Source: a virus. Taken from it: DNA of 22,367 bases. The DNA lies in the IMG/VR virus record IMGVR_UViG_3300020418_000043, positions 1 to 22,367 of that record; one strand, written 5' to 3'. Made by a program: the position numbers and the translations under genes. This document shows, piece after piece, positions 4,113-22,233 of the stretch; within the stretch, counting starts at the first letter, position 1; every line of letters begins with the position of its first letter. Below the pieces are notes generated by a model. It was not told the DNA's origin. It did no database searches and saw nothing but the letters and a program-made list of their open reading frames with translations.

Positions 4113-4739
4113 ATGGATCTTTGGAAAAATTATAAAGCAACTGTTGCTGAGATTTTTCCAGATATAGAATTTGTTAAGCGACATGCTGAATGGACTAATA
4201 AGAAAGGTGTAAACCTAACTGCTGATTTGTACTCAGGTGAACATCTAATTAAGTCAAGACAAGTTGAAATCTGGGATGGTAAATCTTGCAGCATTCACAA
4301 TAATATAATATATCCTAGAACAGGATCTAATCTACCCTGTTTTGGTATGGATCTCATGGGAATGAGTGACAAACGAGTTGTTATTGTGTTTGATTTCCAA
4401 CATCCAGTAGAGAATTACTTGTTTTATACACCAGAATTACCTAAAGTAGAGGGTACATATAGATTCTTTGAAGCGGGTAATCATTTCTCTGACAATCTGG
4501 TTGTTAGATATTGTAAACCTGATGAAGTAGATGAATATCTACCTTTGTTTAAAAAGTACTTACAATTCTATAAGAATATGCTCAATGAGCATAAACCAAT
4601 TGGTACTGATACTACACAGTATGTTGATTTTGATAGATATATGATAAGACTTGATCCAATCTCTGGATATCTATCCAGTAGGTTTGGTAAAGACCAATCA
4701 CAAACACTAATCAAAGAATTCTTTTTCAGTTATGCCTAA
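4113..4739 (+). CDS. pebS: Phycoerythrobilin synthase PebS (ferredoxin-dependent bilin reductase)
   Basis: PebS is a phage enzyme that reduces biliverdin IXalpha in two two-electron steps, via 15,16-dihydrobiliverdin, to phycoerythrobilin, with ferredoxin as donor. The 208-residue protein resembles known PebS throughout (from memory of the family), with YPRTGSNLPCFGMDLM (about residues 67-82), IVFDFQHP and FSDNLVVRYCKPDEVD. The two aspartates described as catalytic in PebS (Asp105 and Asp206) correspond to Asp80 in FGMDLM and Asp181 in LDPISGY. The constant offset of 25 means the variable N-terminal extension is missing. It starts 2 nt after nrdB and ends 8 nt inside the next ORF. PebA, which makes only the first reduction, or PcyX are alternatives, but the second aspartate and the context favour PebS. 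A heme oxygenase, needed to make biliverdin, is not in the window. Confidence 0.88.
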   Translation: MDLWKNYKATVAEIFPDIEFVKRHAEWTNKKGVNLTADLYSGEHLIKSRQVEIWDGKSCSIHNNIIYPRTGSNLPCFGMDLMGMSDKRVVIVFDFQHPVENYLFYTPELPKVEGTYRFFEAGNHFSDNLVVRYCKPDEVDEYLPLFKKYLQFYKNMLNEHKPIGTDTTQYVDFDRYMIRLDPISGYLSSRFGKDQSQTLIKEFFFSYA

Positions 4740-5130: not shown

Positions 5131-5179
5131 GTCTGGATATCAAACTACAATGAAAGAATTTTTTGCTCGATGGAAGTAA
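4928..5179 (+). CDS. Unrecognised small protein overlapping its neighbour by about 200 nt
   Basis: An 83-residue ORF in the +1 frame relative to the previous one. Its sequence looks genuinely coding: amphipathic helices such as KLQIQLLKEGPQQLAQAWLL, then HQDYKKMKGIK and a basic-aromatic end (EFFARWK). It ends 10 nt inside pcyA, the same tight spacing as other genes here, which supports it being translated. Two starts are possible: ATG 4928, with no ribosome site, or ATG 4946 (MTNKSPHTSW), preceded by a weak GGGAT. No function is recognised. Because the first gene is also open across 4928-5130, this stretch either codes in two frames or records a frameshift in one gene. Confidence 0.6.
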   Translation: MNNGIKMTNKSPHTSWRKEYLEMKAGLSKLQIQLLKEGPQQLAQAWLLGAMHQDYKKMKGIKEPPSRESGYQTTMKEFFARWK

Positions 5180-5853
5180 TTGATAATCTAATAAAAATAA
5201 TACAGAAGCATCAGAAGACTCTACCAAATGTAGAACCTTTGGAGGTTGACTCTGAGTTTGAATCAGTATTACATGACACAGATGATGGCAAACTTGACAT
5301 CAAAAATGAAATGTATTATTGTACTGGACTCAGGAAGGTGCACATAGAGGTTGCTAAACTAGGTAATCTTAATATCGTGCATTGTATATGGTATCCTGAC
5401 CCAGAGTTTGATATACCTATTTTTGGTGTTGATATTGTTGCTATGAAAGATACAGTTAGTGCTGCTATCACAGACATATCTCCTGTAGATGGTCTTGATC
5501 ACGAGATCTTTGAAGACATAGAATATATTAGTGAGAGTTTTTATTTCCCACATGATAGAGTTCTACCAGAATGGGGTGAAGTGTTCTCACCATACTGTAA
5601 GTTTGCAAGATTAACCACAGATAAAGAGAAGAAAGATTTCTGTGATATTGTAGATCAATACCTTGACATATTTGTTGGTGCTGTATGGGGAGCAAGTAGA
5701 GATAGTTCTAGATCAGAACACAGATACTTCGGTCAGATAGAATACTGTCAGCACCAGATGAAAAACGATAAGACTAGGAATATATTAGTAAACTATTTTG
5801 GTAAAGAGTGGGCAGAAAGATATATGACAGAGGTCTTGTTTGACGAACCATAA
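5170..5853 (+). CDS. pcyA: Phycocyanobilin:ferredoxin oxidoreductase PcyA
   Basis: Catalyses the ferredoxin-dependent four-electron reduction of biliverdin IXalpha to phycocyanobilin. The 227 residues compare with about 245 in cyanobacterial PcyA, from which it lacks a little of the N-terminus. The residues known from Synechocystis PcyA are all present: His58 and Glu60 in RKVHIE (His74, Glu76), His71 in IVHC (His88) and Asp88 in FGVDIV (Asp105). Other family blocks are VSAAITDISP, LPEWGEVFS, CQHQMKNDKTR and the C-terminal AERYMTEVLFD. The start overlaps the preceding small ORF by 10 nt. The stop lies inside a late-promoter-like CATAAATA. Together with pebS it gives the phage two enzymes that draw on the same substrate for different pigments. 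Confidence 0.95.
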   Translation: MEVIDNLIKIIQKHQKTLPNVEPLEVDSEFESVLHDTDDGKLDIKNEMYYCTGLRKVHIEVAKLGNLNIVHCIWYPDPEFDIPIFGVDIVAMKDTVSAAITDISPVDGLDHEIFEDIEYISESFYFPHDRVLPEWGEVFSPYCKFARLTTDKEKKDFCDIVDQYLDIFVGAVWGASRDSSRSEHRYFGQIEYCQHQMKNDKTRNILVNYFGKEWAERYMTEVLFDEP

Positions 5854-8390: not shown

Positions 8391-8585
8391 GTTGGACGCA
8401 ACATGGGAGTGACTGAATAAACTTACTGGCAACCGCTAGTTAAGGTGATGGGTCAGAGGTGGTGCTCGCTGTCCGCAGGGGCAGAACTACTCAACCAAGT
8501 AGGACTCAGGCAACAACGTATTTACTACTGTAGTAATGCCCGTTGTTTGTTGGTATACAGGAATCCAACCTCCCTCTTTATTTTT
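8391..8585 (+). ncRNA. Hairpin-rich non-coding leader or small RNA (candidate)
   Basis: About 195 nt lie between the promoter at 8357-8384 and ATG 8586 with no convincing gene. Hairpins visible by eye: GTTG/CAAC with loop GACG at the predicted 5' end (8391-8402); CTGTCC/GGGCAG with loop GCAG (8469-8484), extended outside by GGTGGT/ACTACT across an internal loop (8458-8463 with 8486-8491); AACAACG/CGTTGTT (8512-8518 with 8541-8547), enclosing TTACTAC/GTAGTAA (8522-8536); and GTTGG/CCAAC (8549-8569), followed by a pyrimidine and T-rich stretch that resembles a weak terminator. It could be a 5' leader controlling the next gene, a riboswitch-like element, or a small RNA. It does not fold as a tRNA by eye and I could not match it to a known RNA class. 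Confidence 0.5.
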
Positions 8586-9032
8586 ATGGAAGAGATACAG
8601 GCATATAGATATCCTCATGCAGAGGACGTAAACCACATTCTCCACAGAATCATTTGTGATAATAGTGTTACCGAAGATAAGGGAGCATTGATGACTCAGT
8701 GGAATTGTTTTGATGTAGAAGAGTTTAATGTTATCGCAGACTATGCGAAGAGTTTAATTGACAGACCCACTAAGTTGGTAGATCTATGGGGTCAAGTGTA
8801 TCAGTATGGACACTACCAAAGTTATCACAATCATATTCATAATGATTGGGCATTCGTATACTACGTGAATACACCACACGGATCTTCACCTATTGTATTC
8901 AGAACAAGCAACAAAAGAATTAAACCTATAACTGGGATGTTGATATTATTTCCTGGTTATATGGATCATTATGTACCTCCTAATAAGGGAGAAGGAAGAA
9001 GTATCGTAGCGGGAAATTTAGTATACACATAA
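8586..9032 (+). CDS. 2OG-Fe(II) oxygenase-like protein
   Basis: A 148-residue protein fitting the phage-type putative 2OG-Fe(II) oxygenase family. It shows the double-stranded beta-helix landmarks: YHNHIHNDWAFVYYVN (metal-binding His region), GSSPIVF, then GMLILFPGYMDHYVPPNKG (distal His) and RSIVAGNL (the Arg that binds 2-oxoglutarate). Such enzymes hydroxylate proteins or small molecules; in T4-like cyanophages they sit among structural genes with unknown substrates. The frame is open upstream to ATG 8445, but that extension lies in the hairpin-rich leader and is unlike protein, so I chose ATG 8586 (MEEIQAYRYP). It has no ribosome site (upstream is TTTATTTTT). An in-frame ATG 8691 with GGGAG upstream would drop the N-terminal third. 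Confidence 0.8.
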   Translation: MEEIQAYRYPHAEDVNHILHRIICDNSVTEDKGALMTQWNCFDVEEFNVIADYAKSLIDRPTKLVDLWGQVYQYGHYQSYHNHIHNDWAFVYYVNTPHGSSPIVFRTSNKRIKPITGMLILFPGYMDHYVPPNKGEGRSIVAGNLVYT

Positions 9033-9072: not shown

Positions 9073-11172
9073 ATGTCAAAAATTCTTGCAAATGAAATTG
9101 CTAATTACGGTGATGACTCACCGATAGATCTGAAGGAGGGTCTGAATATCCCTGCTGGAAAACCAGTACAGGCAGCAGGATCGTCTGGTACTACAGGACA
9201 AGTCCTGTCTACTACAGGTACTACAGTGCAATGGGTAACACCATTTAGTGGAAGTTATACTGACTTATCTAATAGACCAACTATTCCTGCAGCACAGGTA
9301 AACTCTGATTGGAATGCTTCGAGTGGTGCTGCTGTTATCTTAAACAAACCAGTAGTTCCTCCTCAACCAAGTGTCACTACAGCATCTGCAGGAACTGCTG
9401 CTCTAGCATATAACAGTGGTAACGGAGAGTTTACATTTACTCCTCCAGATCTTTCATCATTTGCTACAGAGACATACGTAACTACTAGAGGATACTTAAC
9501 ATCATATACAGAAACTGATCCTGTATTCTCTGCATCTGCTGCATCAAATATAACTACTGCAAAAATTTCTAATTGGGATACATCATACAGTTGGGGTAAT
9601 CATGCTTCTGTAGGATACTTAACTCTGGAGTCTGATACTCTACAGACAGTTATTAACAGAGGTAATACCAGCACAAGTCCAGCATACTTTACAGCAAAAT
9701 TACAATACAGTAACGCATTTGTAGCAGCAGATATTACTTCATCTCTTGCTACAACTTATGATGGTTTCTTTTTAAAGAATAGTACTGATGGTAATGCATA
9801 CTATTCACATAACACTGCATGGAAAAAATTATTAAATGAAGATGCACTTCTTGATAATCTATCCAATGTAGATCTATCTGTTGCACCTCAGAATGGTCAA
9901 GTTCTTAAATGGGATTCTGCTACATCAAGATGGAAAGCAGCAAATGATTTAACAGGTGGTGGTGGAGGAGGTCTTTCACTAACAGATCTTTCTGTTCAAT
10001 CATCAACAGCATCAGGAGGAGGTTCTCTTGTATACAATAATGGTAGTGGTGTATTTACATATACTCCACCAGATCTTAGTAGTTTCATAACATCAATAGG
10101 AGATGCTATTCGTGATGCTGACTTCACAACTAATGGCATAATGAAAAGATCTGGTGCTGGAGTTTATACATCCATCACAGATAATAGTGCTAATTGGGAT
10201 ACAGCATTTGGATGGGGTAACCACGCATCACAAGGATATCTAACACAACTTCCTGTTCATGGACTAGGAGTTCATACTGGTGTAACTCTTACCAATGAAA
10301 CAGCAGGAGACTTGTTACAATATAGTGGTACACAATGGGTTAACTGGACACCAAACTATCTTACAGCAGAAACAGATACATTACAATCTGTAATTACTAG
10401 AAATGGTACAGTAACATCAGGAAACCCTGCGTTCAATACAAGTACTTTCTTCACAGGAACTGGAACAGGTGCAGGAAATGGTGGCAAACCATATTTCTTA
10501 TGGGATGCAGCTAATAATCAATTGGTAGGTTCTGATAATATAGAAATAGTATTAGGATTTAATGGTGATCAAAAAATTAAAACTGATGGTACAAATGTAC
10601 TCTACAATAATTTTGCAAATGTATTACATACTATTGAAAATTCTGGAGAAAGGGAAGCATGGAACAGTAAAGTTAGTGGAGTCTTTGTACCATCATTTAA
10701 AATTAATCATAACGCTGCTGTAGAATTATATCATGCGAATGGACAAATAAGATTAGCAACTTCTTCAACAGGTGTCACCGTAACAGGTGCATTGACTGCG
10801 GGTGGTTTGACCTATCCAACAGTTAATGGTACAAATGGTCAGGTCTTGACTAGTGATGGAGCTGGTAACGTAGCATGGGGAGCTGGCGGTGGAGGTGGTG
10901 CTAGTGTAACTATAAGTGACACACCTCCAGCAGCATCTGCTGGTGATCTATGGTGGGAAAGTGACAGTGGACGTCTAAAAATTTACTATCAAGATGTTGA
11001 TAGTGCACAGTGGGTTGATGTAGCACCACCTCTTGCACCAGCGTTATCCTCAAACGCTCCTGCTACTGCTAGTTCTACTGGTAGTGCGGGTGATATTAGA
11101 TATGATTCTGGTTATGTTTATGTCTGTGTTGCGACTGATACTTGGAAGAGAGCAGCACTAACAACTTGGTAA
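9073..11172 (+). CDS. Modular tail-fibre-like structural protein
   Basis: A 699-residue protein rich in Ser, Thr, Gly and Asn, built of short beta-type modules typical of T4-like cyanophage fibres. Repeated units are YNSGNGEFTFTPPDLSSF (about 114-130) and its copy at about 322-338; NWDTSYSWGNHASVGYLT (about 167-184) and NWDTAFGWGNHASQGYLT (about 374-391); and ESDTLQTVI/ETDTLQSVI. A poly-Gly linker occurs at about 297-302. Near the C-terminus there is a block (GGLTYPTVNGTNGQVLTSDG) that recurs almost unchanged in the next gene, then SAGDLWWESDSGRLKIYY. There is no signal peptide; such proteins assemble into the virion. A late-type box precedes it. Start chosen at ATG 9073 (MSKILANEI), directly after the inverted repeat. 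The exact fibre role is unknown. Confidence 0.8.
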   Translation: MSKILANEIANYGDDSPIDLKEGLNIPAGKPVQAAGSSGTTGQVLSTTGTTVQWVTPFSGSYTDLSNRPTIPAAQVNSDWNASSGAAVILNKPVVPPQPSVTTASAGTAALAYNSGNGEFTFTPPDLSSFATETYVTTRGYLTSYTETDPVFSASAASNITTAKISNWDTSYSWGNHASVGYLTLESDTLQTVINRGNTSTSPAYFTAKLQYSNAFVAADITSSLATTYDGFFLKNSTDGNAYYSHNTAWKKLLNEDALLDNLSNVDLSVAPQNGQVLKWDSATSRWKAANDLTGGGGGGLSLTDLSVQSSTASGGGSLVYNNGSGVFTYTPPDLSSFITSIGDAIRDADFTTNGIMKRSGAGVYTSITDNSANWDTAFGWGNHASQGYLTQLPVHGLGVHTGVTLTNETAGDLLQYSGTQWVNWTPNYLTAETDTLQSVITRNGTVTSGNPAFNTSTFFTGTGTGAGNGGKPYFLWDAANNQLVGSDNIEIVLGFNGDQKIKTDGTNVLYNNFANVLHTIENSGEREAWNSKVSGVFVPSFKINHNAAVELYHANGQIRLATSSTGVTVTGALTAGGLTYPTVNGTNGQVLTSDGAGNVAWGAGGGGGASVTISDTPPAASAGDLWWESDSGRLKIYYQDVDSAQWVDVAPPLAPALSSNAPATASSTGSAGDIRYDSGYVYVCVATDTWKRAALTTW
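9382..9462 (+). repeat. Fibre module TPPDLSSF, copy 1
   Basis: Encodes an AxxYNSGxGxFTFTPPDLSSF-type unit. Related copies lie at 10009-10086 (same gene) and 11363-11443 (next gene), each followed within a few dozen residues or further on by a SDTLxxV/IxxR unit. Divergent at DNA level, so this is old module duplication. Confidence 0.65.
9571..9624 (+). repeat. Fibre module WGNHAS-GYLT, copy 1
   Basis: 54 nt encoding NWDTSYSWGNHASVGYLT; the second copy at 10192-10245 has the same length and encodes NWDTAFGWGNHASQGYLT. Confidence 0.8.
10009..10086 (+). repeat. Fibre module TPPDLSSF, copy 2
   Basis: Second copy of the unit at 9382-9462, here ending TYTPPDLSSF. Confidence 0.65.
10192..10245 (+). 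repeat. Fibre module WGNHAS-GYLT, copy 2
   Basis: Second copy of the 54-nt unit at 9571-9624 within the same fibre gene. Confidence 0.8.
10771..10880 (+). repeat. 110-nt fibre module shared by two adjacent genes, copy 1
   Basis: Encodes a unit containing LTAGGLTYP and NGQVLTSDGAGNVAWG. The copy at 11717-11826 in the next gene has the same length and is clearly similar in DNA, including identical CAGGTCTTGAC. Confidence 0.85.
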
Positions 11173-11203: not shown

Positions 11204-12205
11204 ATGGCAATTAATTTTCCTGCAACAGCAGGGCAAGCAACTGATGGTACTTTTACATACACGGTAGCAGGGATAACATACGCATGGAACGGATCATCGT
11301 GGGCAGCTGCTGGTGCTGGTGCTAGTGCTACTAATAGATCATTGTTTAGTGTGACAACAAACTCTCCATCTGGTGGTGGAGCATTAAGTTATGATCAGAA
11401 CAGTGGAGCATTTTCATATACTCCTCCAGTTCTAAGTGGATTTCTTACAGCAGAGTCAGATACACTAGCAACAATAACTGCAAGAGGTGCAAGCACTGCT
11501 AATCAAACAACTTTTACTGGTGGTGTAGAAGCAAACGTCCTTAATCTTACTACTAATGGAATAAACCTTACTTCAACTAATGATATAGGAGTTTCTGCAA
11601 CAGGTTTATATATTAATAACACATCTAACAACTCAACTATTGCAAGTTTTCAGTTCAATACTGGATGTCAATTAAGAGACACAAATGGTGTCGTTAGATT
11701 ATACACACAAACAACTGGTGCAACCATTGATGGTACATTGACTGCTGGTGGACTTTCTTATCCAACAACCAACGGGACTAGCGGACAGGTCTTGACGAGT
11801 GATGGCACAGGAAATGTAACATGGGGAAGTCCTGCAGGATCAAGAAGCACTGTACCTGTTACAGTTAACATCGCAAACGAAGCTGTATCTAACACATCAT
11901 TTACAACTCCTAAAACATATGTTCTTATAAAAGTATCAACATCTCATGCTGCATGGGTAACACTATACAGTGATACTGCTAGTAGAACTTCTGACGCATC
12001 AAGACAAATAAATGTAGATCCTTTACCAGGTTCTGGTGTTTTATCTGAGGTAATTACTACTGGTAACCAAGTACAATTAATTACACCTGGCACAATATGT
12101 TTTAACTCTGCTGGCACAGGAACCACATATGCAAAGATAGTTAATAAATCAGGATCAACAGCAAATATAACAGTGACACTTACATACGTTGTATTGGAGA
12201 GTTAA
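11204..12205 (+). CDS. Tail-fibre-like structural protein, related to the preceding gene
   Basis: A 333-residue modular protein. The N-terminal unit (FPATAGQATDGTFTYTVAG, YAWNGSSW) is a small beta module common in phage fibres. It is followed by a copy of the TPPDLSSF-type unit (TPPVLSGFLTAESDTLATIT, about 74-95) and the shared 110-nt module (about 172-208). The remainder, about 215-333, is a different beta-rich domain with many Thr and Val (WVTLYSDTASRTSDASRQIN, VQLITPGTICFNSAGTG), probably the distal tip or a trimerisation unit. It has an AAGGAG ribosome site. It appears to be a shortened relative of the 699-residue protein with a new C-terminus. Its stop is 1 nt before the next ATG. Confidence 0.8.
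   Translation: MAINFPATAGQATDGTFTYTVAGITYAWNGSSWAAAGAGASATNRSLFSVTTNSPSGGGALSYDQNSGAFSYTPPVLSGFLTAESDTLATITARGASTANQTTFTGGVEANVLNLTTNGINLTSTNDIGVSATGLYINNTSNNSTIASFQFNTGCQLRDTNGVVRLYTQTTGATIDGTLTAGGLSYPTTNGTSGQVLTSDGTGNVTWGSPAGSRSTVPVTVNIANEAVSNTSFTTPKTYVLIKVSTSHAAWVTLYSDTASRTSDASRQINVDPLPGSGVLSEVITTGNQVQLITPGTICFNSAGTGTTYAKIVNKSGSTANITVTLTYVVLES
11363..11443 (+). repeat. Fibre module TPPDLSSF, copy 3
   Basis: Third member of the unit seen at 9382 and 10009, here ending SYTPPVLSGF. Confidence 0.6.
11717..11826 (+). repeat. 110-nt fibre module shared by two adjacent genes, copy 2
   Basis: Encodes a unit containing LTAGGLSYP and SGQVLTSDGTGNVTWG; pairs with 10771-10880. Confidence 0.85.
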
Positions 12206-12206
12206 T

Positions 12207-15200
12207 ATGTCAGAAAAAATCTATGTTGTCACCCTTCATAATAAGGAAGACTTGGAAGGATTTTATGATGATATGAAGGACAACGGGTTTCGTTTAAACT
12301 TGAAACGTCCTATCAGTAGAAACACACACTACTGGATGACAGATGAACAAGCAGAAGAATTAAAACAAGATCCTAGAGTATGGGATGTAGACTTACGTCC
12401 AGAAGATAAAGGAATATATCCTAAAAAATGTGCAACATCAAAGGACGAAGTATTTTTTAGAAATCTTGAAGGAACTTTTTGGAAAGATGGAGGCATCAGT
12501 ACTGCTAATGATTTTCCATGGGGTCTATCACATACTGCAGATTCTGTAGGTGTGCATAGAGGCAAGGGACAATTTGGATCTAGTGGAGGAACTTATAATC
12601 AACATCCTGCACAAATTGTAAGTGATATGTATGAAGGTGCATGGGGTGATGGCAGACATGTAGACATAGTTGTTTGTGATGATCCTGTATCTTCTGGTTG
12701 TGCTGAGTGGATGGGATTTCAAGAGACTAGATTTGTTCCATATCAATGGTTCAATGAATTGAATACTGAGGTAGCATCTATAGATGATGATGGTCAGACT
12801 CTACCCACTGGAAATGTAACTTACCATACTAATGCAACCAATCCTGAGTATCATGGAACTCATGTTGCTGGAACTTGTGCAGGACAATACTATGGACTTG
12901 CAAACGAAGCAAATATATATGCACTACAAATTCTAGGCACAATGCCTTCTGGTCAAACTCTACCCACATTATTATTGTATGATTATCTCAGAGCATTTCA
13001 TAGAAAGAAACCTATTAATCCTGTAACTGGATACAAGAATCCTACAATATCAAATCATAGTTGGGGGTATAGCACAGAGACATCTTTAGAAGCAGAATTT
13101 CCTGCTGGTATTGCAATTGGAAATGTTGTAGAAGTAAACTATCAAGGTGTACAATATAATTCTAGTAATCCTAATCCTAGTGGTTGGACAATGGCAGGAT
13201 TAGAAACAGACTTTGGTATTGCTCCTAACAAATGGAGTATCCCTGTCACACTTACATCTGTCAATGCTGATGTAGAAGATGCTATCGAGGATGGTATAGT
13301 TATTGTTTGTGCTGCTGGTAATGATAACTTTCATGTTGTGCCACAAGGAGATGCAAATTATAATAACTTTGTTATCTTCCAAGGATATAATAGCAATGCT
13401 CCAATCTATTTTAATAGAGGTATGTCTCCTGCCAGTGCACCAAATGCAATCATGGTAGGATCATTAGGTAGTGATGCTGCATTCAAGAGATCAACTTTCA
13501 CAAACTTCGGTCCTAGAATAGATGTGTTTGCACCTGGTAGTAATATTTTATCTGCATGGGGAAACCCTGCTGTTATCACAGGACCTAGTGCAGGAGCAGG
13601 GTTTGTTGATTCAAAATATCCTGGCGGTGGAAACTGGATATGGCCTATAAGTGGAACCAGTATGGCATCACCACTGATTGCTAGTGTTGCAGCAATGGTT
13701 GCTAGTGCTAGGAGGACGGATAGATTTAGTAATGATGATCTTCGTGCATACTTGAATAACAATAGTATCTTTGGTGACATGACCTTTGATGTTAGTGGAG
13801 GACAGTTTGATGATAATTCATGTAGGAAAGATAGTCCTAACAAATATTTGGTAACAACAAATCCTAGAAAATCAAATGGTAATTTACAGAGTAAAGTAGG
13901 AGATAGAAGAAGTGGTGCAGTATTTCCTAGACCTAAAAAATTACATGCTGCTAATGGATTTCCTAGTGGTATATTATCTACCGCTTCACAGTTGGCAATA
14001 ACAAAGGAGTGGAAGGCATTAATACCAACACCTCCTTGGAAAGATCCAGCAACACAAGGATTGTTTCAATATACTTCTGAGTTATACATTCCTACTAACG
14101 AAGCAGGACCTACAGGATACCCTGTAATGATTTGTTTACATGGTAATGGAGGATCTGGAACTACTATTAATGATCCAATTTATTCTACATTAGGAGATCA
14201 TATTAGAGTAGGTCCTAATGGTTTCTTTAACAGTTGGAATATAGTTGACGAGAATAGTACTGCTCCTGACATAGAATACTTGAGAAATCTTATTAAATTA
14301 TTGAAGACATTTACAAATGTAGACAGTACAAGAATTAGAATTTCTGGTATATCTAATGGTGCAGCACTAGCATGTAGAGCATTTGTTGAGATAGATGATC
14401 CTGCTGTTGATTTAATTATTCCTATTGTATCTCAGTTTCATATAAATGAGGTAAATAATTTTACACAGTTCTTTGAACCAACAGATCATTTGAATACTAA
14501 TGGTACTCTAGCAGATTATGGATATAGTAATCAAAAAGTTCCTGCTACTGGTAGAAAAATATTGATGATGCAGAATACTAATGATAATGTCATACCTTAT
14601 AATGGTGGCGGTGGTGTTGGTATTCAATTTATAGGTGCTAGACTATGCACATATCGTATGGCACAAGCTATGGGATGGGTAGGAGGAGAACAGAATACTG
14701 GACTAACATATCAAGGAGACGCAGCAACACAACTTTATCGTTATAATATTAATGGAAATGCAAATGAGGTAGTTCATTGTGCAAGTAATGGTGGACATGG
14801 AATCAATGCAAAGATGATTACTTTGTTTGAGGAATGGGTTGAGAGTGATGGTCAGACAATTACAGTTACAGCACCATCTAATACATATAATATAACTGTC
14901 CTAGCATTTAGTAATGTTAACTATACACTTAATGGAAATGATAGGAATGGATTGGTGAGTGGTAATGATCCTACAGTTACTGTACAGGCAGGAGACACAA
15001 TTAATTTCAATGTCAATGCTGGAGGACATCCTTTCTATATTAAGACAGTTTATGTTGGTGGTACTTCTAATCAAGTAACAACAGGAACCATAACTGGAAC
15101 ACAGGGATTGACTAACGGTACAATATCTTGGAACACAACAGGTGTATCAGCAGGGACATATTATTATGTTTGTTCTCCACATGCATTTCTTGGTATGGGT

Positions 15201-15221
15201 GGATCAATTGTTGTCACATAA
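12207..15221 (+). CDS. Subtilisin-like protease + alpha/beta-hydrolase + plastocyanin-like copper domain
   Basis: A 1004-residue protein with at least three functional domains. Residues about 5-64 resemble a subtilisin propeptide (inhibitor I9-like). Residues about 150-510 form an S8 protease with a full catalytic set: Asp158 in VVCDDP, His216 in YHGTHVAGT, oxyanion Asn372 in AAGNDN and Ser485 in SGTSMASP. Residues about 605-880 resemble a polyhydroxybutyrate-depolymerase/esterase-type hydrolase: HGNGGSG (645-651), Ser716 in GISNGA, Asp793 in NTNDNVIPY and His864 in GGHGIN. Residues about 884-1004 resemble a cupredoxin, with His941 in GGHPFYIKT and CSPHAFLGM giving Cys989, His992 and Met997, the plastocyanin ligand spacing. 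Start ATG 12207 has GGAGAG upstream; the frame stays open a few codons further but into the previous gene. There is no signal peptide. It lies within the fibre cassette, so it is probably a virion-bound enzyme that attacks the cell surface or processes fibre proteins (inference). Confidence 0.88.
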   Translation: MSEKIYVVTLHNKEDLEGFYDDMKDNGFRLNLKRPISRNTHYWMTDEQAEELKQDPRVWDVDLRPEDKGIYPKKCATSKDEVFFRNLEGTFWKDGGISTANDFPWGLSHTADSVGVHRGKGQFGSSGGTYNQHPAQIVSDMYEGAWGDGRHVDIVVCDDPVSSGCAEWMGFQETRFVPYQWFNELNTEVASIDDDGQTLPTGNVTYHTNATNPEYHGTHVAGTCAGQYYGLANEANIYALQILGTMPSGQTLPTLLLYDYLRAFHRKKPINPVTGYKNPTISNHSWGYSTETSLEAEFPAGIAIGNVVEVNYQGVQYNSSNPNPSGWTMAGLETDFGIAPNKWSIPVTLTSVNADVEDAIEDGIVIVCAAGNDNFHVVPQGDANYNNFVIFQGYNSNAPIYFNRGMSPASAPNAIMVGSLGSDAAFKRSTFTNFGPRIDVFAPGSNILSAWGNPAVITGPSAGAGFVDSKYPGGGNWIWPISGTSMASPLIASVAAMVASARRTDRFSNDDLRAYLNNNSIFGDMTFDVSGGQFDDNSCRKDSPNKYLVTTNPRKSNGNLQSKVGDRRSGAVFPRPKKLHAANGFPSGILSTASQLAITKEWKALIPTPPWKDPATQGLFQYTSELYIPTNEAGPTGYPVMICLHGNGGSGTTINDPIYSTLGDHIRVGPNGFFNSWNIVDENSTAPDIEYLRNLIKLLKTFTNVDSTRIRISGISNGAALACRAFVEIDDPAVDLIIPIVSQFHINEVNNFTQFFEPTDHLNTNGTLADYGYSNQKVPATGRKILMMQNTNDNVIPYNGGGGVGIQFIGARLCTYRMAQAMGWVGGEQNTGLTYQGDAATQLYRYNINGNANEVVHCASNGGHGINAKMITLFEEWVESDGQTITVTAPSNTYNITVLAFSNVNYTLNGNDRNGLVSGNDPTVTVQAGDTINFNVNAGGHPFYIKTVYVGGTSNQVTTGTITGTQGLTNGTISWNTTGVSAGTYYYVCSPHAFLGMGGSIVVT

Positions 15222-15255: not shown

Positions 15256-18200
15256 ATGGCAGATCGTTTTCCGTTAATAGTAAATGCGGTTTCTCAAAAA
15301 ATTGAGGAACTGATTTCTGGTGACAATTTAGAATTGTCTGGTAATAATATAATCATCAGTGGTGACACAGGTGCAGGAAAATACCTGACCAGTAATGGTA
15401 GTGTTGTTTCTTGGGGAACGCCTGGTGATGTTTATCTAACACAAAACCAAACATTAGAAAATAAAACATTTACATCATGCATCATTTCTGGATCTGCTAA
15501 TACTCTCTCTAACATACCAAACGCTGCTCTTTCAAACTCTACAATACAAGTAAATGGTGCTGCTATTGCTCTAGGTGGATCCGTTGTAACACCAAATGAT
15601 AACACCACTTACTCTGTGAGTGCACAAGATGGTATCAATAACAATACAAAAGTTATTAGACTAACTGCTGGTGGATCAGGAACTGGTGATGATGATGTTA
15701 GTATTGCTGTAGGTCCTCCTGCTGCTGTTCCTGCTGGATCTAATGCTCTTGCTCTAGCAATTAATAGAGTTGGTGAAGTTATTACAATATCTGGTACAGC
15801 ACCTGATGCTGACACCATAACAACAGTAAAGTCTGGAACTGGTGGTACAGCACAGACTGGAGATATTACAATTGCTGCGACTGGATCCTCTACAGTATCT
15901 CAGGACGTAGCATCTAAAACAATTACGATCAACTCAACTTATGTTGACACGATCACAAAGATGAGAGCAACTACAGGACAAGTATTAAATCCTGGTAACT
16001 TTACATTCTTATCTGGTGGTGCTACTACTGTTGCTCAAGGTGTAGATGGTAATGGTGACTCAACAATTACATATACATCTGTTGACACAATCACAAGAGC
16101 AAAAGGTGGAGCAGCTGGATCGTTTGTAACTGGTGATGTTGAGTTTACTGGTGGAGCAAACGTCACAGTATCACAAGCGGGTAACACAATCAGTATTGCT
16201 AGTGTAGACACAAACACAGTAACTAGACTTTCATCTGGTGCTAACGTTGTGACTGCAGGAGACTTTAAGTTTGTAGGAACTGGTGCTACTAGCATTTCAC
16301 AAGCGACTGCTGGTGGTGTAACAACATTCACAGTCACATCTCAGAACGATGATACTGGTGCAGCGTTGACAGCATCTGCTGGTATTTTATTATCAGGAAC
16401 AGATTTTCAGTTAAAAAATGCTGGTAACTTTTCTGGTAATCAATTATTAAAGTGGGACTCTGGTAACAGTCAGATAGGAAATAGTTTGATTTCTGATAAC
16501 GGGTCTACTGTTACAATTTCTGGTGATTTAGTTGTTGATGGTACACAAACTGTTCTTAATACACAAACACTTATTGTAGAAGACAATAGTATTGAACTAA
16601 GAAAAGGAAATAATTTAGTTGGAAATGATGGTGGTTTACAGGTAAACTTAGAAACAGATGGTGGTGGATCTGTCACAAAATATCAATCATTACAATGGTA
16701 TAATTCTGGTGGATACTGGAGAGGATGGGATGGTTCTGTTGAGAGAAGGTTTGTTACAGAGTCAGAGACACAGATTCTTACTAACAAAACTCTTACATCT
16801 CCAACACTTACCTCACCTAACATTGGTGCTGCTGTTGCGACATCAGTTAATGGTCTTATCGTTAGTACAACTGCCTCTGCAACTCTAGACATTGCAACAT
16901 CTAAAATATTAGATGTAAATGATTCTCTAACATTAACATCAGATAACCCTGCTGCAACTGTTGCTGTTAACTTCAGAGTTGGTGGAGACGTAGCATATAG
17001 ATCTGATACTCTTGCATCATTCTCATCTACCACATCTACACAGATGCGTGGTTTGATTACAGATACAACAGGATTAGATAAGTTAGTATTCCAAACTAAC
17101 CCTACAATTTTAACTGGTATTACTACAACATCTGCAGGATTTAATTTAGTTAATACTGGTGCTACAAGTATATTATTTGGTGGTGCTGCAGGAAGCATTG
17201 TCATGGGTGCTTCTACTGGTACTACAACAATCAACCATGACTTAGAAGTTATCGAGGATATCACATGTGGTGTTGATACAAACGATACTGCTACATTCAA
17301 TGGTATTGTCAATATTGAAAATGCAGACTTAGTAATTCGTGGAACATCTAATGACCCAATACAAGTTGGTAGAGGTGGTGGTGCTGTAAGCACAAACACT
17401 CGTGTGGGTACATCAGCACTTGCTGCAAACACTTCTGGATCTCAGAACACAGCATTTGGATACCAAGCATTGTTCACAAATAATATCGGTGCATCCAATA
17501 CTGCAATTGGACACAGGGTTTTGAGGGCAGCGGGTGTCGCAAATAACAACATTGGTATTGGTAAAGATGCATTACTTGTTACACTTTCTGGTAGTAAGAA
17601 CCTTGCGATTGGTAACAATGCAATGGAAACAAACCAGACTGGTAGTGGAAACGTCTGTATTGGACACTATGCTGGTTTCGATGTACAAGGTAATAACAAC
17701 GTTCTCATAGGTCCTGCATACAATGAGACTTCTGCTGATGTAACATTCAGACCTCCAAATATTAGTGGAGATAATCAACTTGTTATTGGTTCTGGTGGAC
17801 AAGCATGGATACGTGGTGACAATAGTTACAATGTTAGTCTTAGTCAAGATCTTACCGTAGATGGAGATACACTTATCAAAGGTGATCTTGTAGTCAATGG
17901 TACTACAACCACAGTTAAATCTAATATTGTACAGATTACAGACAAAGCAATTGAACTTGCTGCTGTTGTAAGTACACAGTTTACATGTACTGCTGTATCT
18001 GGATCTAGCAATATCACAGCGATTGCTCCTACATTAGGACTGATACCTGGCATGGAAGTTACATCAAACACTGCTGGTATTACAGTTCCTGCTGGAACAA
18101 TCATTGTAAGTATTACAAATGACACAGCGGTATTGAGTAACAACGTAACAGGATCTGGTACACCTACATTCAGTGCGATAGGTCCTTCCGATACTGCTGC

Positions 18201-18951
18201 AGAAGACGGTGGTATTATTGTTAAGGGTACAACCGATAAGACATTCTTATGGAGAGGAACCGATGGTGGTGTATCATATAACTCTTGGTTGTCTTCAGAA
18301 CATATGGATCTTGCAACTGGTAAGAACTATTATGTCAATGGTATTCTAATTGCTAGTGATACAAGTAAAGTTATCGGACCTACAAATGGTGGTGGTCAAG
18401 GACAAACAACTTCTCCTTACACACTCGGTAGTGCTGTTACAGGATCATCATTGACATCTCTTGGAACTCTTACTACATTACAAGTTGGTGGTGATATAAC
18501 CATGAGCAAATCTGGAGTAGGAGTTGCGTTATTTAGATCTACAGATGATGATATGCGTGTCAGAATTAGATCAGTTGATGGCAAATTTAGTCAATTAGAA
18601 TTTGCTGATACTGATGCAGATGCTGGTGAGATCAGATATGGTCATGCTGGTGGCACTATAACATCTGATTTTATGGCATTCCATGTTGGTAGTAATACAG
18701 AGCAACTTCGTATAGAATCTAATGGTAATGTATTACCAGCAGGAGATAACACACAAGATTTTGGATCAAGTACTAAGAGATGGGCAAACGTATATACTGG
18801 TGACATGCACTTAAATAATATGAATACTGGTGGTAATGAAGTGGACGGATCTGAAGGTCACTGGACTATGCAAGAAGGTGCTGATGATCTCTTCTTAATC
18901 AATAGAAATACTGGTAAAAAGTATAAGTTCAATCTTACAGAGGTATCATAA
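15256..18951 (+). CDS. Large tail-fibre protein with repeat arrays
   Basis: A 1231-residue fibre-like protein. N-terminal LTSNGSVVSWGTP and LTQNQTLENKTFTSCIISG units are typical of T4-like cyanophage fibres. Residues about 186-364 contain four tandem imperfect repeats, each opening with DTIT or DTNT and containing a GDF/GDV strand and an S-or-A-QxxxxxxTI strand. Two copies of GDLVVDGTQTVL/GDLVVNGTTTTV with ...ELR/ELA follow, about 453 residues apart. Residues about 716-822 form a YadA-head-like array (NTAFGYQAL, NTAIGH, NNIGIGKDAL, NLAIGNNAM, NVCIGHYAG, NNVLIG). The C-terminal part, with LRIESNGNVLPAGDNTQDFG and KRWANVYTGDMHLN, resembles the end region of other phage fibres. It was probably made as a trimer. 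The ribosome site is weak (GGTAG). The stop overlaps the next start in TAATG. Confidence 0.85.
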   Translation: MADRFPLIVNAVSQKIEELISGDNLELSGNNIIISGDTGAGKYLTSNGSVVSWGTPGDVYLTQNQTLENKTFTSCIISGSANTLSNIPNAALSNSTIQVNGAAIALGGSVVTPNDNTTYSVSAQDGINNNTKVIRLTAGGSGTGDDDVSIAVGPPAAVPAGSNALALAINRVGEVITISGTAPDADTITTVKSGTGGTAQTGDITIAATGSSTVSQDVASKTITINSTYVDTITKMRATTGQVLNPGNFTFLSGGATTVAQGVDGNGDSTITYTSVDTITRAKGGAAGSFVTGDVEFTGGANVTVSQAGNTISIASVDTNTVTRLSSGANVVTAGDFKFVGTGATSISQATAGGVTTFTVTSQNDDTGAALTASAGILLSGTDFQLKNAGNFSGNQLLKWDSGNSQIGNSLISDNGSTVTISGDLVVDGTQTVLNTQTLIVEDNSIELRKGNNLVGNDGGLQVNLETDGGGSVTKYQSLQWYNSGGYWRGWDGSVERRFVTESETQILTNKTLTSPTLTSPNIGAAVATSVNGLIVSTTASATLDIATSKILDVNDSLTLTSDNPAATVAVNFRVGGDVAYRSDTLASFSSTTSTQMRGLITDTTGLDKLVFQTNPTILTGITTTSAGFNLVNTGATSILFGGAAGSIVMGASTGTTTINHDLEVIEDITCGVDTNDTATFNGIVNIENADLVIRGTSNDPIQVGRGGGAVSTNTRVGTSALAANTSGSQNTAFGYQALFTNNIGASNTAIGHRVLRAAGVANNNIGIGKDALLVTLSGSKNLAIGNNAMETNQTGSGNVCIGHYAGFDVQGNNNVLIGPAYNETSADVTFRPPNISGDNQLVIGSGGQAWIRGDNSYNVSLSQDLTVDGDTLIKGDLVVNGTTTTVKSNIVQITDKAIELAAVVSTQFTCTAVSGSSNITAIAPTLGLIPGMEVTSNTAGITVPAGTIIVSITNDTAVLSNNVTGSGTPTFSAIGPSDTAAEDGGIIVKGTTDKTFLWRGTDGGVSYNSWLSSEHMDLATGKNYYVNGILIASDTSKVIGPTNGGGQGQTTSPYTLGSAVTGSSLTSLGTLTTLQVGGDITMSKSGVGVALFRSTDDDMRVRIRSVDGKFSQLEFADTDADAGEIRYGHAGGTITSDFMAFHVGSNTEQLRIESNGNVLPAGDNTQDFGSSTKRWANVYTGDMHLNNMNTGGNEVDGSEGHWTMQEGADDLFLINRNTGKKYKFNLTEVS
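15811..16347 (+). repeat. Four tandem imperfect fibre repeats, about 41-47 residues each
   Basis: Units begin at 15811, 15946, 16084 and 16207, each at a D-T-I-T or D-T-N-T motif, with spacing 135, 138, 123 and about 141 nt. They look like beta-repeats of a fibre shaft and have diverged strongly in DNA. Confidence 0.65.
17400..17720 (+). repeat. YadA-head-like repeat array
   Basis: Encodes six or so short units of the form N-x-A/I/V-x-I/F-G-x-x-A, about 14-20 residues apart, as in left-handed beta-roll heads of trimeric autotransporter adhesins and in some phage fibres. Confidence 0.7.
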
Positions 18952-19883
18952 TGCCTATTACAATGGGTGGAGGTTCACCAATAGGACAACAAGCATTTAC
19001 AACCGCTGGTAGTTTTACATGGACAGCACCAGCTGGAGTAACTTCTGTTTGTGTAGTATGTGTAGGTGCTGGTGGTGCAGGAGGTGGAGCGTTAGCATAT
19101 AAAAATAATATTACTGTTGTACCAGGCACAGGTTATGCGGTAGTCGTTGGTGCTCCTGGTTCTATGGGAACAGGAACTACTGGTTCTGCAGCAGGACAGA
19201 ATACAGGAACTCCTGGTGGAGATTCATCATTTACTGCCACTCATGGAACCACAACTGCACAGGGTGGCGTGACAGGACCTTCGTCAGTATCTACTAAAGG
19301 ATCACCAGCAGGAGTTTATGACGGTGGTGGTAGTGGTGGAATAACATACAACCATGGAGGATATAATGGTGGTGGAGCTGGTGGATATTCTGGAGATGGT
19401 GGCGGTGGCGGTGCATCAAATGCAACTGGAAATTATAATAATGCTGGTGGAGGCGGTAGTCATGGTTCGTGGGCTTACTGGGCTGGTGGTGGTGTAGGTA
19501 TCTTAGGTGAAGGTGCTAGTGGAGCAGATTCTACTGGAAATGGATTTGGTGGTTCAGGTGGTGGAGATGGAACAGGACCAGGAACTGAAAATGCTCAGTC
19601 TCAAACTGGTGGAGATTATGGTGGTGGTTCTAGTGGAAGATGGGCTGGAAACACAGGTGGTAAAGGTGCAGTGAGAATTATATGGGGTGCTGGTAGATCA
19701 TTTCCATCAACAAATACAGCAGATGTTTCGGGTAGTGCAACTCAGTCCGAATTCAAATTAGATAGATTAGGTATTGCAACAGGAACTTCTGATCCTAGTG
19801 GTGCCTCTGCTGGAGATATATACTATAAGACTGATACTAATAAAGTCAGAGTATATGATGGTTCTTCTTGGAAAGATGTTTAG
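18951..19883 (+). CDS. Glycine-rich adhesin-like tail-fibre protein
   Basis: A 310-residue protein. The N-terminal part (GQQAFTTAGSFTWTAPAGVT, then VCVGAGGAGGG) matches the opening of phage glycine-rich domain proteins. Residues about 40-245 are dominated by Gly runs separated by Ser, Asn and aromatics (GGYNGGGAGGYSGDGGGGGA), like the polyglycine sandwiches of gp38-type fibre-tip adhesins in T-even relatives, whose loops set host specificity. KGAVRIIWGAG closes the domain. The last 45 residues (LDRLGIATGTSDPSGASAGD, YDGSSWKDV) are a separate module that reappears at the N-terminus of the next protein. The start overlaps the previous stop (TAATG). The gene follows the large fibre as gp38 follows gp37 in T2-like phages. 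Role by analogy only. Confidence 0.8.
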   Translation: MPITMGGGSPIGQQAFTTAGSFTWTAPAGVTSVCVVCVGAGGAGGGALAYKNNITVVPGTGYAVVVGAPGSMGTGTTGSAAGQNTGTPGGDSSFTATHGTTTAQGGVTGPSSVSTKGSPAGVYDGGGSGGITYNHGGYNGGGAGGYSGDGGGGGASNATGNYNNAGGGGSHGSWAYWAGGGVGILGEGASGADSTGNGFGGSGGGDGTGPGTENAQSQTGGDYGGGSSGRWAGNTGGKGAVRIIWGAGRSFPSTNTADVSGSATQSEFKLDRLGIATGTSDPSGASAGDIYYKTDTNKVRVYDGSSWKDV

Positions 19884-19892: not shown

Positions 19893-21533
19893 ATGCCAGT
19901 TATAGTTGGAGATGGTACAGGTGCAGGAGTAGAAGGAAAATCAGATAGAATAGGTATTCCGACAGGATCTTCTGATCCAACTTCAGCAGAAGTCGGTGAT
20001 TTATATTTCAACATTCCAAATAGCACATTAAAAATATACAATGGTGTTGGTTGGGAAGATCTTGGAGCTGGTACTATCGCACCAAACGGTAGTAGTTCAT
20101 TTCCAGCAGTATCTGCTGCCCAATTATTATCAGATTATCCAAACTTAAATTCTGGTGTTTATTATTTACAAACTAGTGGAGGTAGTGTACAAGTTTATTG
20201 TGAAATGGAGAGAATGGGTGGTGGTTGGGTTATCCCCTTCCAACATCAATGTGTAAATGATCAGGGATTATATGAGACATTATTTACTAATGCTCCTTCT
20301 GGCACTCCAAACTCTGGTTCATCTGACTTCCAAGGAGCAGGATCTCTCACTGGTTCACAACTCTGGGATAATTATGTTGGTTCTAGTTCAGAAGCTATGG
20401 TATACGCCAGAGAAATTCAAACTGCTGGTGGATCATATGATGAGACACATGCATATGTTAGTAGCAATGGTGGAACCATTTTTAGTAAAGCAAATTTTCA
20501 AGACTTACTTAATCCTGTACCAGGAAATGGTGGTTATGAATCTGGTATTACAGTTCTTTATAGAAATGGTTCAAGAAAAGTAGATCTAAAACAGCAAACC
20601 GTGTGGTCTTCTCCATCATTAGTTACCATTAACAATGGTGCAGTAGACCAAGAACTATATTATTGTAATGGTCAAGATGGTGGTGATTCCAACTGGTCAT
20701 TTGCTTTGATGCGAGGTGGCACACCATATCCTCGTTTAGCAAACACTGCTAATGGTGGTGGTCGTCACAATGGTGTTACACGTTGGGGTCAGTTAGGATT
20801 CCGTGCTGCTTCTGTTAGTGTTCCAGTTGATCCTTTTGGTGACATGTCAGGAGTTGGATACTTCCCATTGACTAATACTTTTACTAATAAGTCAGTTGGA
20901 TATACACAATATAATGGCACTAATACTGCTGGAACTTATACAGCAGAGGGTATTACATGGGCAAGTGTAGGAGCACATGGATTCCGAATCCCAAAACCAG
21001 GTGAAGTATCTATTGGTGAGTGGTTCCAAGGAAACCAAGACTGGGCAATTTCTATGGTCTTTAAGATGGCTGCTAATCCAGGCACTGCAACAAATAGAGC
21101 ACTGATACATATGGCTAACGGTGATGACCATGCTAGACCAGCATTTTGGGTTACTGGACCTAACAGAGGTGCAGGAGTTGCAAACAAAATGGAATGGTTT
21201 AGTAGTAGTAATGGATCTTCTTGGGACATTGCGAGAGGAGATACTAATGCTTCTGGTCTCGGATCTGCCACTATTGCTGCTGATACCAAGTATCATGTTG
21301 TGTTTACTCGTAGTGGTTCTAGTGGATTAAAAGGATATGTAAATAAAACTCTTGATTGGAGTGATAGCAATACAGCATCTCACTATGCCTCTGGAGATTA
21401 TGAAATTAATATTGGAGCTTGGTTTAACTACCTCAGCAATTATGGATGGCATGGATCTATTAAGAATGTAAGATTCTTTAGGAAAAATTTATCTTCAGCA
21501 GAGGTTAATCAATTATATACACTAGACTTTTAA
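19893..21533 (+). CDS. Fibrinogen-like plus LamG/concanavalin-like adhesin
   Basis: A 546-residue protein in three parts. Residues about 15-58 are the module shared with the preceding protein (SDRIGIPTGSSDPTSAEVGD, KIYNGVGWEDL). Residues about 68-310 resemble a fibrinogen C-terminal domain: FPAVSAAQLLSDYP, SGVYYLQTSGGSVQVYCEME and the GGGWVIPFQ turn, with a later Asn/Gly-rich region (GGGRHNGVTRWGQLGFRAAS). Residues about 320-546 resemble a LamG/concanavalin-type lectin: WAISMVFKM, KYHVVFTRSGSSGLKGYVN, IGAWFNYLSNYGWHGSIKNV and the closing RFFRKNLSSAEVNQLY. Both folds bind sugars or proteins in other systems, so a receptor-binding role is likely (inference). It is preceded by a perfect AGGAGG. 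Confidence 0.82.
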   Translation: MPVIVGDGTGAGVEGKSDRIGIPTGSSDPTSAEVGDLYFNIPNSTLKIYNGVGWEDLGAGTIAPNGSSSFPAVSAAQLLSDYPNLNSGVYYLQTSGGSVQVYCEMERMGGGWVIPFQHQCVNDQGLYETLFTNAPSGTPNSGSSDFQGAGSLTGSQLWDNYVGSSSEAMVYAREIQTAGGSYDETHAYVSSNGGTIFSKANFQDLLNPVPGNGGYESGITVLYRNGSRKVDLKQQTVWSSPSLVTINNGAVDQELYYCNGQDGGDSNWSFALMRGGTPYPRLANTANGGGRHNGVTRWGQLGFRAASVSVPVDPFGDMSGVGYFPLTNTFTNKSVGYTQYNGTNTAGTYTAEGITWASVGAHGFRIPKPGEVSIGEWFQGNQDWAISMVFKMAANPGTATNRALIHMANGDDHARPAFWVTGPNRGAGVANKMEWFSSSNGSSWDIARGDTNASGLGSATIAADTKYHVVFTRSGSSGLKGYVNKTLDWSDSNTASHYASGDYEINIGAWFNYLSNYGWHGSIKNVRFFRKNLSSAEVNQLYTLDF

Positions 21534-21621: not shown

Positions 21622-22233
21622 ATGATAGAATCGAGACCGATAGTCCCCCAGAATGATGGGTGGTTGGAAGTTCGTGTACCCAAAAACATCATGGATGATC
21701 TGTGGGGCATGATAGACACTGCAGGAAGAGATGCTAAGTTTAAACTAGCAGGAAATATCAGTGCAAGTAAGGAGATGAGTCCGACTGATACTTTCAAAAA
21801 ATTTATTGGTGATGTAACAAAAGAATACGGAGAGCATTTCAAATACAAAGCAAGTGAAATGATAACCATGATACCAGAAGGATCATCAATTCAATTGAAT
21901 GATCTATGGGTCAACTGGCAGTATCAACATGAGTTCAATCCATCTCATGTACACTTTGGTTTGTATTCATTTGTTATATGGATGAAGATGCCAGTAGAAA
22001 CTACAGATCAAATGCAATTACCCATAGCAAAATCTACAAGTTCATGTCTATCATGTTTTCAGTTTGAATACTTTAATACATTTGGACAGAAAAGACTTTT
22101 CAATTATCCTATGGGCAAAGAGATAGAAGGTCTGATGGTATTCTTTCCAGCAGTAATGAACCATTTAGTATATCCTTTCTATGATTCAACTGAACCTAGA
22201 ATCTCTGTCGCAGGGAACATGGCGTGGATGTGA
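21622..22233 (+). CDS. 2OG-Fe(II) oxygenase-like protein, second type
   Basis: A 203-residue protein with the same fold signature as the gene at 8586 but a different sequence. Residues 113-140 hold LNDLWVNWQYQHEFNPSHVHFG, which places a His pair (HVH) where the usual family has HxD. The later block GLMVFFPAVMNHLVYPFYDS holds the distal His, and RISVAGN the 2-oxoglutarate-binding Arg. Between them lies a Cys-containing insert (SSCLSCF). Related proteins are common beside structural genes of T4-like cyanophages; the substrate is unknown. The start is ATG 21622 (MIESRPIVPQ), with no clear ribosome site but 3 nt after a small ORF. The stop overlaps a late-type box. Confidence 0.78.
   Translation: MIESRPIVPQNDGWLEVRVPKNIMDDLWGMIDTAGRDAKFKLAGNISASKEMSPTDTFKKFIGDVTKEYGEHFKYKASEMITMIPEGSSIQLNDLWVNWQYQHEFNPSHVHFGLYSFVIWMKMPVETTDQMQLPIAKSTSSCLSCFQFEYFNTFGQKRLFNYPMGKEIEGLMVFFPAVMNHLVYPFYDSTEPRISVAGNMAWM

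Follow-up and report, generated by a model that had tools for sequence, protein, structure and literature searches.

Results

Gene content of the locus

The DNA analyzed here (the window) is a virus fragment of 22,367 bases, positions 1 to 22,367 of the IMG/VR record IMGVR_UViG_3300020418_000043. It was assigned to a T4-like marine cyanophage because it carries ribonucleotide reductase, bilin reductase and transaldolase genes and has relatives among the Kyanoviridae. The gene of interest is intact, from an ATG at nucleotide 12207 to a stop codon that ends at 15221, and codes for a 1004-amino acid product referred to below as the triple protein (Table 1). It is part of a structural operon, with tail fiber, virion structural and lectin genes as neighbors. 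The protein encoded immediately upstream, of the PHROG_9627/15343 type, lacks a copper domain. Genes for 2OG-Fe(II) oxygenases (PHROG_81) are found on either side of the fiber gene island, at 8445-9032 and 21622-22233, and a pair of genes for ferredoxin-dependent bilin reductases, each matching PHROG_7278, lie near each other at 4113-4739 and 5170-5853.

Table 1. Genes around the triple-domain gene and predicted regions of its product.
Feature	Position	Strand	Evidence
Tail fiber protein gene	9073..11172	+	PHROG_9729
PHROG_9627/15343 protein gene, directly upstream of the triple-domain gene	11204..12205	+	PHROG match
Triple-domain gene, 1004 aa	12207..15221	+	full-length PHROG_9158 match, 3.1e-211
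Probable I9-like subtilisin propeptide, residues 1-68	12207..12410	+	predicted fold, profile searches, conservation
Fast-evolving low-confidence linker, residues 69-150	12411..12656	+	model pLDDT, dN/dS
Predicted S8 protease, residues 151-525	12657..13781	+	triad D158/H216/S485, oxyanion N372
Conserved post-protease linker, residues 526-594	13782..13988	+	alignment
Predicted alpha/beta-hydrolase esterase, residues 595-884	13989..14858	+	triad S716/D793/H864, PHROG_2576
Predicted cupredoxin (plastocyanin-type), residues 885-1004	14859..15218	+	ligands H941, C989, H992, M997
Virion structural protein gene	15256..18951	+	PHROG_6002, 1575 bits
Glycine-rich protein, fiber island	18951..19883	+	PHROG_4474
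LamG/concanavalin-type lectin protein, fiber island	19893..21533	+	domain search

Domain architecture of the triple protein

A first-pass annotation, made from the nucleotide sequence, had described this product as a chain among tail-fiber genes that combines a complete subtilisin triad and its oxyanion Asn, a complete alpha/beta-hydrolase triad and a full plastocyanin-type ligand set. The catalytic residues were all found at exactly the positions it had assigned, the copper ligands are H941, C989, H992 and M997, and the active-site residues are almost invariant among relatives. The structure predicted for the full chain has a mean pLDDT of 84.7, with every domain folded and none of the catalytic residues misplaced; the pTM is 0.54, so the relative placement of the domains is not predicted. 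The domain searches that the annotation had recommended identified Peptidase_S8 (4e-26) and Copper-bind (2e-6) above the curated Pfam cut-offs, while the esterase was recognized by its matches to PHROG_2576 and AoAXEB and not by Pfam.

The residues of the protease active site lie in the motifs VVCDDP (D158), YHGTH (H216), AAGND (N372) and GTSMA (S485). The motif around the Asp departs from DTG and reads CDDPV, a degenerate form in which the Asp itself is still invariant. In a family alignment of 74 rows, D158 and H216 are present in all 74, and N372 and S485 in each of the 72 that reach them. Foldseek searches with the model retrieved proteinase-K-like enzymes (2e-16), and the subtilisin fold of the model was apparent from TM values to the target of 0.74-0.8. 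The N-terminal half of the product of 12207-15221 is predicted to be a proteinase-K-type S8 protease with a complete active site. Following the protease, the conserved linker displays the motif CxxxSPNxYLxxxNPRxxxG...R..G..FPR, beyond which the cargo modules diverge between phages. This linker and its homologues weakly resemble the viral 2-cysteine adaptor PF08793 (7 of 18 members, best E 0.0019).

Residues 4-63 of the model form a beta-alpha-beta-beta-alpha-beta arrangement, the topology of subtilisin prosegments. When a profile of the N-terminal region was compared to the PDB, the top three matches were subtilisin prosegments at non-significant E values of 0.5-0.75, and 6 of 16 members gave weak matches to Inhibitor_I9 (best 0.024). 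In a 558-amino acid model, the propeptide-like domain was not superposable on docked propeptides (rmsd 14 Å to 3whi). No other part of the chain is as well conserved as this domain (dN/dS 0.08-0.24), whose mean identity among 53-64 relatives is 66%, higher than those of the S8 (52%) and copper (47%) domains. Better conservation of this region and its homologues than of the catalytic domain is unusual for a subtilase propeptide. As the modeled topology suggests, the triple protein is probably a zymogen with an I9-like propeptide; given that its conservation is unexpectedly high for a disposable propeptide, the domain may also dock to the particle. A maturation cleavage would likely fall in the linker formed by residues 69-150, where pLDDT falls below 50 at 72-82 and 141-145 and dN/dS is 0.64-1.1. 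The probable I9-like propeptide would bring self-processing, which the first-pass annotation had listed as an alternative, into the main reading.

The esterase module has an alpha/beta-hydrolase fold, a G-x-S-x-G sequence and a Ser-Asp-His triad contained in the motifs GISNG (S716), NTNDN (D793) and GGHG (H864). It matched PHROG_2576 at 5.7e-62. A profile built from eleven aligned esterase modules, in which the Ser, Asp and His are invariant, matched chain 9j07 of AoAXEB at 2.3e-7, and a Foldseek search with the model also retrieved 9j07 (acetyl xylan esterase B; 1e-12, TM 0.66). D793 and H864 are present in 16 of 16 family rows that carry the module. No curated family cut-off was reached, and because the Pfam matches stay below the gathering scores the module is called CE1-like rather than CE1. 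Esterases with 32-44% identity were found in genomes assigned to Bacteroidota, Planctomycetota and Verrucomicrobiota. Two other apparent cellular matches were rejected as cellular carriers, since they are probably misbinned phage contigs. One (L173), filed as Gammaproteobacteria, has the window's own neighbors and looks like a misbinned phage contig; the other (L229), a 335-kb contig filed as Neomarinimicrobiota, has adjoining pro-S8 and esterase-YHYH genes with phage structural ORFs alongside. A different arrangement was seen in L024:5998-8955, where a second alpha/beta-hydrolase-like stretch (GHSQGG) lies inside the cupredoxin domain and its Asp and His motifs come ahead of the Ser motif, an order reminiscent of a circular permutation. 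The extra stretch may be a genuine insertion, or the sequence may be a metagenome chimera.

In the C-terminal part, the His-Cys-His-Met set of a type-1 copper site was recognized within a cupredoxin fold in both sequence and model. The spacing C-x2-H-x4-M is that of plastocyanin, with x2 in most relatives, and the ligands are kept in 59-60 of approximately 61 family rows. This part is predicted to be a type-1 copper domain and is a putative copper binder. Related copper domains were found in cyanophage proximal tail fibers. Capture of a host PetE as the source of the domain is not favored, as its relatives are tail-fiber domains and the PHROG PetE match reaches only 0.063. In L070:4700-7705, the protease and an intact copper domain flank cupredoxin-like repeats that are apparently devoid of any copper ligand.

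The dN/dS values for the protease, esterase and copper domains are mostly 0.2-0.45 (range 0.08-0.64), an indication that all domains of the triple protein are under purifying selection. The invariant triads and the low dN/dS disfavor the possibility that the protein is an inactive pseudo-enzyme.

Distribution and cargo exchange

The propeptide-S8-esterase-Cu chain was found in about 19 contigs besides the window, including the genome of the isolate S-MbCM7 (ACG-2014h). An assembly chimera was ruled out by this recurrence, and the domains do not occur together by chance in a single genome. The combination, which the first-pass annotation did not know as a described phage system, is not unique to the window genome. 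The fused triple form, the swappable cargo and the split counterpart were not found described in the open-licence papers searched. The family, PHROG_9158, is labeled "unknown function". The pro-S8 platform is common to the IMG/VR and GenBank relatives, and what varies is the C-terminal cargo: a copper domain in 43 ORFs, and none or another cargo in 31. LamG lectin cargo was identified in L023 and S-SCSM1, and tandem copper domains in L072 and L074. On the S8 tree, the presence of the esterase requires four gains or losses, all forced by well-supported branches. On the esterase tree, the fused copies form two groups, but two origins are not fully supported. A comparison of L002:212-3214 with the window showed 98% identity in the copper domain and just 63% in the linker that follows the propeptide, a disparity that points to domain-scale recombination between phages.

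Split counterparts in other marine phages

Other marine phages have the esterase at the C-terminal end of a baseplate-wedge protein of 1050-1200 amino acids (PHROG_17744), and the genes that follow code for a copper-domain protein (PHROG_9627/15343/677 type) and then for a pro-S8 protein. Downstream sequence of 3 kb or more was available for 23 baseplate-type esterase loci, and an S8 ORF was present at 21 of them, usually with the Cu-domain gene in between. As for the two without it, L125 shows a cut ORF that covers the propeptide only, and the esterase ORF of L117 is truncated, with neighbors and sequence that fit the YHYH type. No S8 gene was found near the YHYH-esterase in any of 11 cyanophage loci, and in all 11 a copper-domain gene is next. 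Given the lack of S8 at these loci, the predicted protease and esterase need not occur together. Because a PHROG_9627/15343 gene also precedes the S8 gene in the window, the gene order is kept there, with the esterase and copper domains carried on the protease chain. That the parts fused in the window are neighbors elsewhere argues for a joint function. Tentatively, we propose that the pro-subtilisin, the CE1-like esterase and the copper domain may be a baseplate surface-opening kit of marine T4-like cyanophages and related uncultured phages, encoded by three neighboring genes in certain lineages and, in others, repeatedly fused and reshuffled on a single protease platform. The window would represent the fully fused form.

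Evidence on virion location

The S-SCSM1 protein QFG06492, which consists of an S8 domain with the triad kept and two LamG domains and is 27% identical to the triple protein, carries a "(virion protein)" note. The S-SCSM1 record has 48 products with the virion label, and several plain structural genes are without it; mass spectrometry of the virions detected 45 proteins (PMC9602691). Because the numbers of labels and proteins differ and structural genes are unlabeled, the label appears to follow detection mostly but not exactly. The text of PMC9602691 does not name the QFG06492 gene. In S-CREM1 the S8 gene is within the baseplate operon. S-SZBM1_207, a YHYH protein without esterase that occupies the esterase's position, was detected in virions by one peptide (PMC9146016), and these phages' YHYH and lectin proteins are placed among the putative receptor-binding or baseplate proteins in PMC7029224. 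A search for virion subtilases in the open-licence literature returned nothing direct, and the main text on jumbo phage Atu_ph07, consulted for independent virion evidence, does not name the subtilase of that phage. By analogy with these proteins, a location of the triple protein on the virion of the window's phage is supported indirectly.

Discussion

Each individual fold of the triple protein was already known, and the protease has been annotated in several cyanophages. Among the closest known systems is S-MbCM7_177 (AHB80591, PHROG_9158) of ACG-2014h, which has the same domain order and the same neighbors, shares 42% identity over 99%, and is annotated only as a hypothetical or S8-domain protein; its esterase is only about 36% identical to that of the window and branches apart from it on the esterase tree. 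The S8-Cu proteins of S-CAM4, ACG-2014e/i/j and S-H9-1, described as "subtilisin-like serine protease", share the protease platform, the linker and the C-terminal copper domain but have no esterase. QFG06492, the "baseplate wedge subunit" of S-SCSM1, is likewise a pro-S8 protein with an intact triad, although LamG lectin cargo replaces the esterase and copper domains. The YHYH-esterase proteins of the baseplate locus (ACG-2014d_72, the S-ShM2 gene annotated gp7, PHROG_2576) have a homologous esterase with the same triad, joined not to a protease but to YHYH, for which a tail metal hydrolase function is predicted (PMC7824862). Fold and catalytic residues of the protease are shared with subtilases of the proteinase K, aqualysin and VPR types, but the window enzyme has large insertions, no secretion signal and extra C-terminal modules. 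AoAXEB (PDB 9j07), a CE1-type acetyl xylan esterase also labeled feruloyl esterase, has the same fold and triad arrangement as the window esterase; identity in the structural alignment is about 19% and the substrate is not transferable.

We lean toward the interpretation that the triple protein is a virion-borne, self-activated surface-opening enzyme, probably peripheral to the baseplate or the fibers. The first-pass annotation had likewise suggested a virion-borne enzyme for entry, an interpretation that the intact domains, the tail and baseplate gene neighborhood, the recurrence of the domain order in other phages and the distant S8 homologue annotated as a virion protein support in part. 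The multi-enzyme protein, in which no recognizable secretion signal was found, would be made in the cytoplasm with its protease held inactive by the N-terminal I9-like propeptide, whose topology comes from the model and whose homology was detected weakly. The propeptide would assist folding and then be removed by the enzyme's own cleavage. On the particle, the protease would trim outer-surface proteins of marine Synechococcus or Prochlorococcus and the CE1-like esterase would strip ester groups off the same surface, so that the tail could reach its receptor or the outer membrane more easily. The copper domain, whose role is the least certain, may act as a stable adhesive or redox beta-sandwich of the kind common to cyanophage fiber proteins. 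The fused chain would be one arrangement of a kit otherwise encoded by separate adjoining baseplate genes.

Other explanations were considered. The protease could be a maturation enzyme that cleaves neighboring fiber proteins and itself during tail assembly, with the esterase and copper domains as passengers. The synteny with fiber genes and the zymogen-like N-terminus fit this explanation, as does the N-terminal domain being the most conserved, which is expected if it meets conserved assembly partners. We regard it as rather unlikely, however, since the varied surface-type cargo (LamG lectin, esterase, Cu) suits host contact and not processing, and the esterase is kept on baseplate-locus proteins that have no protease. 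Subtilases and CE1 esterases usually act outside the cell, and this property, together with the esterases of 32-44% identity in the bacterial genomes mentioned above, would agree with a soluble, non-virion enzyme, freed at lysis, that helps progeny to disperse by clearing away host debris or polymer. The genes nonetheless sit in structural operons, the esterase can be fused to a baseplate-wedge protein, and the S-SCSM1 homologue is flagged as a virion protein, all of which make release at lysis improbable. We give equally little credence to the idea that the enzyme-like folds serve adhesion with little catalysis. Copper and lectin modules do suggest binding, and some cupredoxin-like copies in relatives have no copper ligands (L070), but a pure binder would lose its triads, and here no residue of either triad varies across approximately 45-90% identity, nor does the oxyanion Asn, and dN/dS is low.

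To our knowledge, the way in which cyanophages cross the host surface is poorly known, and most cyanophage tail proteins are annotated as unknown. The hosts are the ocean's most abundant photosynthetic cells. A surface-opening, virion-borne triple protein would suggest a function for PHROG_9158 and also for the C-terminal half of PHROG_2576. As a widespread, modular protein predicted to be active-site-complete, it provides named domains, residues and isolates (S-MbCM7, S-CAM4) with which entry could be tested directly.
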